A stretch of DNA of 45,674 nt. Source: Candidatus Methylomirabilota bacterium. GTDB lineage: Bacteria; Methylomirabilota; Methylomirabilia; Rokubacteriales; CSP1-6. Below, in pieces: positions 41,864 to 44,721 of the stretch. The notes beneath the pieces are model-generated. The model did not search any database, had not been told where the DNA came from, and saw only the letters and a program-made list of their open reading frames with translations. Each line of letters begins with the position of its first letter. The first letter of the stretch is position 1. Location of the stretch: the NCBI GenBank assembly GCA_036002485.1, contig DASYTI010000141.1, positions 1 to 45,674 on the forward strand. Direction: 5' to 3'. The translations under genes and the position numbers were made by a program.

Positions 41864-42478
41864 TCAGTCGGCCGCAGCGCGCTTGGCCTTTAGGAGCTCA
41901 TCGCGCTTGACGCGGATCAGCCGGGCAAGCTCCGCATAGCCTGACTTCCGGATGACCCGGTCGAACTGGGCGCGGTAGTTGGCCACGAGGCTGATCTGCT
42001 CGACCGCGACGTCGAAGACGAGCCAGCGGCCGTCGCGGTGCACGAGCCGGGCGTCCACCGTCAACTCATGTCCTTTCTTGGTGAAGACGCGGGCGCGGAC
42101 GTCGGCCCGGTCGCCCTCGACCAGCTCGCCGACGTACCGGACCCGGAGGCCCCCTTCTCTGTCCATTCGCGAGATATAGATCGCCTCCAGGAACTCGGCA
42201 AAGAGCAGGACGAAATCGTCGCGCTCGGCCGGAGTCAGCTCCTCCCAATGACGCCCAAGCGCACCCTCTGCCGCCTCCGGCGCGCCGAAGACCTGAATCG
42301 CGACCTTGCGCACGGCCGCCTGAAGCGCTTCGATCGTGTCCTTCTCCCGCAGCACGGTGTCCTGGATCAGCTGCAGTACCCGCTCGGTGTATTGCTGCAT
42401 CTCCTCGGTCGGCGACTCTGGCCACGCCGGCGCCGGAGCGGCGAGCACAAGCGCCAGCACCGCCAACCCCGCTCTCAC
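41864..42478 (-). CDS. MlaC/Ttg2D-family periplasmic protein
   Basis: A 204-residue exported protein with a signal peptide (AGLAVLALVLAAPAPAWPES). The body (ELTPAERDDFVLLFAEFLEA, ISRMDREGG, VRARVFTKKGHELTVDARLV, DGRWLVFDVAVEQISLVANY, RAQFDRVIRKSGYAELARLI) is a clear MlaC/toluene-tolerance domain. MlaC shuttles phospholipids between the outer and inner membranes. No mlaA, B, D, E or F gene is in the window. GTG 42478 overlaps the stop of the metacaspase-like gene (GTGA), so the two are translationally coupled, an unusual partnership. Confidence 0.9.
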   Translation of the reverse strand: MRAGLAVLALVLAAPAPAWPESPTEEMQQYTERVLQLIQDTVLREKDTIEALQAAVRKVAIQVFGAPEAAEGALGRHWEELTPAERDDFVLLFAEFLEAIYISRMDREGGLRVRYVGELVEGDRADVRARVFTKKGHELTVDARLVHRDGRWLVFDVAVEQISLVANYRAQFDRVIRKSGYAELARLIRVKRDELLKAKRAAAD

Positions 42479-44547
42479 CGCTTCACTCGGATCAGCGGTA
42501 GTGAACCTTCGACCTCGCCCTTCATCATCGGATGCTGATTGCCTCCGACGGCGCGCGACCTCCGCCCCACCTCGCGCTCCAGATACGCGTAGAGCTCCTG
42601 GAGCGACACGATGCCGTCGCTGTTCGCGTCGGCTGCGCCCCGGAGGCCCTGGACGAGATAGTAGGTGAACAGGCCGTGACCGAGCGCGGAGAGCTCGATC
42701 GATACTTCCGAGGCCCGGGAGGCGGTGATGACCACGCGCCCCCGGGATTGCGCGAGACGCTCGAGGAAGAGGTCGTCGACGCTCACGGCGCGCGTCTTCT
42801 GCGACGCGAATGTCCGCCCGCCCGCGGCGCCGCTGTAGCAGGCGTCGAAGAACGCCACCACGCGCTCGGCCTCGATCCGCTCGAAGATCGTCCGGATCTC
42901 GTCCATCGGGAGGGCCGAGGCGTAGAGATCCTCGGGATCGGCGTCCGTCGGGAGCAGATACTTCGCGAGCCCGTCGCGCTCCGCCCCACGCAGGTCAGCC
43001 TCGGGCCCGCCGTGGCCCGCGAAGAAGATCAGCACGGTGTCGTCCCTCCGCGCGGAGCGCGCCAGGAACGTGCCGAGCGCGTACCGAATATTACGGAGGG
43101 TCGGCTTGCGCGCCGCCTTGTCCGTCAAGAGGAGCACGTTCTCTTTCTTGAACTCCCCCGGCCCGATCAGCGTCTGATACACGGCCTCGGCGTCTGCCAC
43201 GCTGTAGGCGAGCCGCGGGATGGCCGGGTTGTCGTAGCGCCCGGCGCCGATGACCACCGCCCAGCGCTCCCGCGGCGGCGGGGGGGCCACCGACAGGGCG
43301 GGGGCGAGGCGGCGATCGTAGGTGATGGTGCGGACCTCCTGGCGGGCCGTGCGGTCCATCTCTGTGGCGGTGATCACGATCACGTTCGGCCCTTCGCGGA
43401 GCGTCACGGGAACGCTCACCACGACGGATTTTGGCGCGCCACTCTCGGTCTCCCGGTGGATCTCACTACCGTTCAGCGTCACGCTGACCGTCGCCACGCC
43501 GCGTCCCGAGGTCACGATTGCCGTCGCAATTAACGCGGGGTCGCCAACCCGCGCCTGCTCCAGCGGATTGCGGAATGCGATGGCGAGGGGCTCGGGCTTC
43601 TCCACGCCGGCCGGTGCAGTGGCGGCCGCGAGGCGCTTGAGTTCGAGCCGGCGCTCCTTCGTCTCGAAGGCCAGGCGGAAGACGCCGCGGAGGGCGGCGT
43701 CCTGATGGAGCGTGAGGGTCACCCGCGAGGCGAGCGACGTAACGAACTGGAGCGCGATCTTGTCGTCGGCGGTGTCGACGAGCACATGGACGGGCGTGAG
43801 GTCGGAGTCCGTTACCCCGAAGCGCCCTTCGACCCGCCACTTTCCGCCCTCGAAACGCGCGGAGTCCACGATGAGGGTGCGCCGCGACACCGCGAAATCG
43901 AGCTCCCCCTCCCAGCGTCCGATGATGAGGGGCGGGAGGCTTGTTGCGGGATCGGGCGGCAGAGCCAGTGGCGGCGAGAGGGCGACGGGGACAGCAGGTT
44001 CGGCGGTGGACTTCTCGGCGGCGGCAGCGCGGCTCAGCCGGTCGAGCGCCGTGGTCGGCGCGGTGGACGGGGCACCCGGCTGAGACGACACGCGCCTGAG
44101 CTCGATCGGTCGCTGTTTCGCCTCGTTGGGGAGCTTAAACGTGCCGCGTAACAGATTCCCCTCGACGAGGTCGAGCTCGACAGCCGACGCGAGCTGTGTG
44201 ACGAACCTAAGCGTGAGACGATCGCCTTTCACCTCGAGCGTGGCCGACATCGGCGTGAGATAGAGGCCAGTCGTGCCGTACTCGATGTCGGCAGACCACT
44301 TCTCGCCCTGACGACGCACCGACCGGACGACGAGCGTCCGGTCAGGGAAGGTGAGGTCCACTTCGCCCTCCCACCTGCCGACGATCCGCCCAGGGCCCAT
44401 CTCGCGCGGCACGCTCGGAGCGGCGAGCGTCGCTCCGAACTGTTGGGATAGGGCGCAACCCGCGAGCGCCAGGCCGAGCAGCGCTCCGAGCGCGACGCGC
44501 CCTAAACCCGTCGGAAAGCAAACCGGACTAGATGTTGCGTCGCCCAC
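42475..44547 (-). CDS. Metacaspase-like (peptidase C14) lipoprotein with duplicated N-terminal domain and EF-hand loop
   Basis: A 690-residue predicted lipoprotein: hydrophobic signal with lipobox LAGC (Cys31). Two similar domains follow, each opening GRWEGEVDLTFPDRTLVV or GRWEGELDFAVSRRTLIV, about 110 residues each with a Pro/Ala linker. Then comes an Ig-like segment (VSVTLNGSEIHRE...GPNVIVITATEMD) and a caspase domain with His512 in FFAGHGG and Cys570 in DACYSGAAGG. Near the C-terminus DANSDGIVSLQE (640-651) is a complete EF-hand calcium loop, suggesting calcium control. GTG 44547 has GGAGG ten bases upstream. Its substrate is unknown. It is coupled to the MlaC-like gene, which points to an envelope role. 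Confidence 0.9.
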   Translation of the reverse strand: MGDATSSPVCFPTGLGRVALGALLGLALAGCALSQQFGATLAAPSVPREMGPGRIVGRWEGEVDLTFPDRTLVVRSVRRQGEKWSADIEYGTTGLYLTPMSATLEVKGDRLTLRFVTQLASAVELDLVEGNLLRGTFKLPNEAKQRPIELRRVSSQPGAPSTAPTTALDRLSRAAAAEKSTAEPAVPVALSPPLALPPDPATSLPPLIIGRWEGELDFAVSRRTLIVDSARFEGGKWRVEGRFGVTDSDLTPVHVLVDTADDKIALQFVTSLASRVTLTLHQDAALRGVFRLAFETKERRLELKRLAAATAPAGVEKPEPLAIAFRNPLEQARVGDPALIATAIVTSGRGVATVSVTLNGSEIHRETESGAPKSVVVSVPVTLREGPNVIVITATEMDRTARQEVRTITYDRRLAPALSVAPPPPRERWAVVIGAGRYDNPAIPRLAYSVADAEAVYQTLIGPGEFKKENVLLLTDKAARKPTLRNIRYALGTFLARSARRDDTVLIFFAGHGGPEADLRGAERDGLAKYLLPTDADPEDLYASALPMDEIRTIFERIEAERVVAFFDACYSGAAGGRTFASQKTRAVSVDDLFLERLAQSRGRVVITASRASEVSIELSALGHGLFTYYLVQGLRGAADANSDGIVSLQELYAYLEREVGRRSRAVGGNQHPMMKGEVEGSLPLIRVKR

Positions 44548-44721
44548 TGGGTGATGACCTCCGCAACAGGGAGGAGCCCCGGAACCGGCATATCTCGCTG
44601 AGTAGAGCGATTATGGCCCGATCCGTTCAGCTTTCACATCGAAAATGCGGGGCCAGAAAGCGGGGGTCAATAATCTTGACGAGACCAAACAAACGGACCC
44701 CCCGACGAACGAGGAAAGGCC
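44548..44721. other. Intergenic region with candidate minus-strand promoter
   Basis: No gene is supported in these 174 bases. On the minus strand GTGAAA (44632-44637) and CATAAT (44610-44615) are 16 bases apart and could drive the metacaspase-MlaC unit with a leader of about 56 bases. The composition is less GC-rich than the surroundings (AATAATCTTGACGAGACC, CAAACAAACGG), which may mark the remains of an insertion. Confidence 0.4.

Follow-up and report, generated by a model that had tools for sequence, protein, structure and literature searches.

The locus analyzed here encodes a caspase relative whose stop codon overlaps the start codon of a gene for a MlaC-family protein, and it raises the questions of (i) whether the caspase relative is a lipid-anchored protease of the cell envelope; (ii) whether the MlaC-family protein is its genuine partner; and (iii) whether the two proteins act together in a process that involves lipids. 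To our knowledge, the roles of bacterial caspase relatives outside defence and outside the cyanobacteria are mostly unknown. The window, i.e., the whole stretch of DNA that was analyzed, comprises 45,674 nucleotides and is contig C141 of a 4.4 Mb genome whose named relatives belong to Candidatus Rokubacteria. From its N terminus to its C terminus, the caspase lipoprotein contains a lipobox, two copies of a domain that we refer to as GRWEGE, an Ig-like domain of the Big_7 type, and a C14 domain that includes an EF-hand loop (Table 1).

Table 1. Features of the caspase–MlaC gene pair; positions are those of the window
Feature	Position	Strand	Details and basis
Caspase lipoprotein gene, 690 aa	42475..44547	-	GTG start, TGA stop; open reading frame and translation
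GGAGG, resembling a ribosome-binding site	44558..44562	-	10 nt upstream of the caspase GTG; sequence
Lipobox L28-A-G-C31	44455..44466	-	end of the predicted signal peptide; orthologue alignment
GRWEGE copy 1, residues 50-156	44080..44400	-	predicted barrel (AlphaFold2); Foldseek against PDB
GRWEGE copy 2, residues 203-310	43618..43941	-	full-length model shows the eight strands of copy 1
Ig-like domain, Big_7 type, residues 322-410	43318..43584	-	modeled with seven strands
Caspase (C14) domain, residues 428-676	42520..43266	-	Pfam; structure match
His512	43012-43014	-	catalytic dyad
Cys570	42838-42840	-	catalytic dyad
EF-hand loop D640-E651	42595..42630	-	flanked by predicted helices 626-638 and 649-666
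GTGA shared by the caspase stop and the MlaC start	42475..42478	-	sequence
Orphan MlaC-family gene, 204 aa with signal peptide	41864..42478	-	PF05494; GTG start

The assignment of the protein as a lipoprotein depends on its start codon. No in-frame ATG, GTG or TTG upstream of the caspase GTG extends the open reading frame, and this check, together with the sequence preceding the GTG, excludes a longer or alternative start that would lack the lipobox. The LAGC sequence satisfies the lipobox pattern [LVI][ASTVI][GAS]C, and the conserved cysteine is followed by A-L, aspartic acid being absent from position +2. All four orthologues contain L-x-G-C, with L28, G30, C31 and A32 invariant. The lipoprotein signal that had been proposed for this protein therefore stands, as the start-codon check leaves Cys31 intact and the cysteine is present in each orthologue. 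On the strength of its sequence, the protein is probably exported and acylated in the cell.

Pfam recognizes the C14 domain (PF00656, Peptidase_C14) with an E-value of 1.4e-16 and a score of 61.3 bits against a curated cut-off of 21.4; the NCBIfam model for EACC1-associated caspases (NF047832) gives 109.2 bits, below its curated cut-off of 140. His512 and Cys570 align with the dyad of the metacaspases of yeast, Candida, Arabidopsis and trypanosomes, while D452 and D568 align with the NDA and D-x-C positions of metacaspases, and all four residues are invariant in the four orthologues. The two acidic residues presumably form the S1 pocket for Arg or Lys. With its catalytic and S1-pocket residues intact, the protein is predicted to cleave after Arg or Lys, and judging from these residues it is probably an active protease. 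The best structural match of the AlphaFold2 caspase domain is MALT1 (TM-score 0.77 on the target), and metacaspases and GSU0716 of Geobacter are also matched. Dyad, EF-hand loop and lipobox were all found where the original prediction had located them. The Ig-like domain is recognized weakly by Pfam in the window protein (Cadherin-like, E 0.078); in the orthologue L036 (1.5e-5), as in paralogues, Big_7 exceeds its cut-off.

The EF-hand loop, DANSDGIVSLQE, has D, N, D and E at positions 1, 3, 5 and 12, respectively, and in the model a short strand within it (646-648), with a helix on either side, gives the geometry of an EF-hand; the loop may bind calcium. However, the loop, or most of it, is retained in 25 of 26 aligned caspase sequences, and we consequently no longer treat it as a distinguishing feature. 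The sequences that retain it include two paralogues that are likely pseudo-caspases, having lost the dyad to Tyr/Ser (L016:1543-2646) and to Arg/Asp (L017:1495-2598). Because most paralogues, including these two, contain the EF-hand, it may be structural, and because the two dyad-less proteins have kept it, a gating of catalysis by calcium does not follow from its presence.

The presence of two GRWEGE copies in one protein was confirmed; they are 43% identical. No Pfam family matched the domain, even at permissive thresholds. Across 11 copies, the G-x-W-x-G, a second W and the L-R-G positions are invariant. AlphaFold2 models copy 1 as a short helix followed by eight strands (pLDDT 91, pTM 0.83), and we predict that GRWEGE is a small eight-stranded antiparallel calycin-like barrel. 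In a Foldseek search of the PDB, the top match of this copy was a designed beta barrel (E 2e-4), while the nearest natural folds were Lili-Mip, a lipid-binding, lipocalin-like milk protein of a cockroach (5epq/4nyq, E 1e-3), followed by the fatty acid transporter REP1 (3ppt, E 1.4e-3); the TM-scores of these matches (0.5–0.56) indicate a weak likeness at the level of topology only. The fold comparison thus gives moderate support to the original guess that the domain is lipocalin-like. The GRWEGE domains are putative lipid binders; the barrel of 107 residues may be packed solid.

The GRWEGE region was also used to search 95 genomes of the phylum, which revealed exported proteins with a single GRWEGE domain, from genus g9 and from G021. 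Three such proteins of about 137 residues, from three species of one genus (L032:8143-8556, L033:8570-8986 and L034:8886-9299), are encoded next to a gene that by eye resembles a hydantoinase B subunit, with no caspase or MlaC gene adjacent.

The barrels might also act on the protease directly. One GRWEGE member matches Inh, a protease inhibitor, very weakly and without significance (E 0.14), and the loop that follows Cys570 (residues 573-590), which is modeled with low confidence and contains the conserved basic residues R578 and R586, is a possible site of self-cleavage. These observations would fit inhibitory barrels of the Inh type that cover the active site of an envelope stress or death effector until cleavage in this loop frees it, with the MlaC protein aiding membrane repair. 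In the full-length AlphaFold2 model (pTM 0.45), the relative placement of the domains is unreliable; we regard this explanation as improbable.

The downstream gene encodes a MlaC-family protein by Pfam, PF05494 covering residues 28-186 with an E-value of 3.7e-33 and 115.1 bits against a curated cut-off of 26, and the protein matches the MlaC structures 2qgu and 8oj4. Its hydrophobic N-terminal signal was judged by eye. It scores below the curated cut-offs of the two relevant NCBIfam models (MlaC, 30.7 of 195; HpnM, 64 of 160.1). Eight MlaC-family genes are present in the genome, only one of which lies with mlaD and mlaE (contig C205). Consistent with the earlier statement that no other mla genes are near the pair, the mlaD and mlaE genes of this genome are located on C205 and C1, and none on C141. 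In a tree of 37 MlaC proteins, the four that are linked to caspases group together in a single clade (98/99 support) and are separate from the MlaCs of mla operons. The partner is thus not placed in the canonical Mla pathway, the operon genes lying on C205 and the partner in another clade. Searches of the genome for the LolA and MlaA families gave no match; family searches of this type used a loose first filter and also missed caspases known to be present there, and we therefore give these two negatives no weight.

MlaC-like genes have multiplied strongly in the phylum, with the number given above in the genome studied here and as many as 15 in G076. Several others are coupled to a gene for an MFS permease (L049:278-2106, L051, L053, L055 and L064), the two genes overlapping in several genera, and in G008 the MFS and MlaC parts read as a single fusion of 615 residues (L057:1383-3230, minus strand). 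Such a coupling suggests that these MFS permeases transport lipids or amphiphiles and have a carrier of their own.

We found four GRWEGE-caspases among 95 Methylomirabilota genomes, each in a different genus, and in all four cases a MlaC gene follows directly downstream. The GTGA overlap, on which the proposal of a coupled pair had been based, is readable at each locus, at three from the gene calls and at the G010 locus from an upstream GTG, while the flanking genes differ between the genomes. The neighborhood search therefore bears out the pairing, and a pair that is unique to this contig is excluded. In a search of 60 relatives, the only full-length ones besides the window protein were those of G018, G010 (about 63–64% identical) and G022 (about 55–56%); many other proteins share only residues 316-690, mostly at 42–68% identity, and are often encoded two or three in tandem. 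When the caspase halves alone were compared (26 sequences aligned), the GRWEGE group was not resolved as a clade. At some 30 further caspase loci, from Rokubacteria and from plasmids, no MlaC gene was detected within the available flank of usually about 1.5 kb, so MlaC goes with GRWEGE-caspases and not with caspases generally. Crude dN/dS values, mostly 0.27–0.54 for both genes, with one MlaC pair involving G022 at 0.75, indicate purifying selection on the caspase and MlaC sequences alike. The pair is known from four draft genomes of one bacterial family. A phage origin was rejected, as viral contigs yielded no relative, and so was a plasmid origin, as plasmids hold only distant caspases (28–35% identity) that have no GRWEGE domain.

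The distribution of the pair leaves room for a history without a joint purpose, in which a member of the abundant MlaC family landed once behind a caspase gene and the operon was then inherited or transferred as a block. The caspase is present in only one of the five species of its genus, and its identity to the G018 orthologue (72%) nearly equals that of RpoA (75%), a similarity between genera that, together with the absence from four congeneric species, makes block transfer possible and that fits strong constraint equally well. Against such a history, the overlap has been retained in four genera amid different neighbors, both genes are under purifying selection, and MlaC is strictly linked to the GRWEGE domains. 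We consider it unlikely that the two genes stay together without a joint function.

The reading that we favor, tentatively and with somewhat less than even confidence, is that the two genes form one envelope module in which the lipid occupancy of the barrels switches proteolysis and the MlaC-like carrier handles the lipid. In such a module, the first product would be an orthocaspase that is exported, lipid-anchored and predicted to cleave behind Arg or Lys, and its pair of calycin-like barrels would probably bind or detect lipid; the second product, soluble and MlaC-like, would probably ferry lipid to the barrels or away from them. Lipid occupancy would then act as the switch for the proteolysis of an envelope substrate, and calcium in the EF-hand would either support the structure or be required in addition. 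We infer both the physical contact between caspase and MlaC and the direction of control. This model is supported by the fixed, overlapping MlaC gene amid varying neighbors, by the single clade of the linked MlaCs, by the lipid carriers among the nearest natural folds of the barrel, and by the invariance of the dyad, D452 and D568 in genes under apparent constraint. It is weakened because the fold match is one of topology, with a designed barrel at its head, because MlaC-like genes are numerous and also couple to other genes such as those for MFS permeases, and because the pair occurs in few genomes and is missing from close relatives. The originally proposed connection between an envelope caspase and lipid transport is thus upheld in part: the conserved, translationally coupled pair and the predicted lipocalin-like fold speak for it, while an EF-hand and a place in the envelope are ordinary in this phylum.

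The control might also run in reverse, the caspase cutting or activating the MlaC-like carrier or a membrane partner so that proteolysis regulates lipid transport, with the barrels doing no more than holding the protease to its substrate. The fixed gene pair and the intact catalytic residues of all four orthologues would suit this, but the weak likeness of the barrels to lipid carriers would have to be put down to chance, and we hold this version to be unlikely.

Returning to the envelope module with lipid as the switch, a caspase that is always co-encoded with a lipid-carrier-like protein provides a testable hypothesis, lipid being the trigger or the target, for the exported Ig/EF-hand branch of the family. 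The observations suggest that this membrane-anchored caspase relative acts as a protease in the envelope and that its activity is linked to lipids. In its most specific form, which we think has a low probability, the protein would be a lipid-gated envelope caspase with tandem calycin-like receptors, which a MlaC-like carrier dedicated to them would fill or empty, and it would convert the lipid state of the envelope into proteolysis. If true, it would connect caspase-fold proteases with the MlaC lipid-transfer family, a link for which no precedent is known, and the pair broadens the roles suggested for that family beyond the Mla pathway.

Several known systems share parts of this arrangement. 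Among them are other Rokubacterial caspases (G000:C1 in the genome studied here, G020:C87 and G021:C162), which are exported and have the same Ig, caspase and EF-hand half (60–68% identical), but which differ in having other N-terminal domains, in occurring in tandem arrays with CHASE2-adenylate cyclase and TPR neighbors, and in lacking MlaC. At L039:7311-12589, L042:1368-11928 and L044:1789-12413, one to three exported caspases adjoin genes for a CHASE2-adenylate cyclase and an exported TPR protein; this arrangement occurs in several Rokubacteria, including the genome studied here, and looks like a conserved sensing system. The caspase domain also matches the PADLOC 'caspase' model; the neighbors checked are metabolism and envelope genes, with no defence genes among them, and an anti-phage system was therefore rejected.

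Like MlaC/HpnM carriers (PF05494), the partner has a full-length MlaC domain and a signal peptide, but it is encoded outside an mla operon, is coupled to a protease, and belongs to a clade separate from the operon MlaCs. The predicted up-and-down barrel of eight strands with a short N-terminal helix resembles calycin-like lipid carriers (Lili-Mip, FABP), than which GRWEGE is smaller and with which it shares no sequence similarity in Pfam. The MALT1 paracaspase, the closest structure to the caspase domain, likewise has its caspase next to Ig domains, but it is not a lipoprotein and lacks barrels and an EF-hand.

Big_7 and EF-hand parts were described for archaeal orthocaspases in 2019 (PMC6426788), and a catalogue published in 2012 (PMC3501461) covers exported bacterial caspases, N-terminal export-like helices included, as well as caspases encoded in operons; since these features have already been published, Big_7, EF-hand and export are not new. 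The claim that this protein is special in its EF-hand and its place in the envelope accordingly fails, both being usual among the caspase paralogues of the phylum. Our search of the open-licence literature for caspase and MlaC returned only unrelated papers, and none on calycin-like caspase domains. With orthocaspases and bacterial metacaspases (MEROPS C14), the window protein shares the p20-like core, the H512/C570 dyad and the acidic S1 residues; to these it adds the lipobox, two N-terminal calycin-like barrels and the MlaC partner, and what is new, as far as we have found, is the tandem of calycin-like domains in a caspase and its constant pairing with MlaC.
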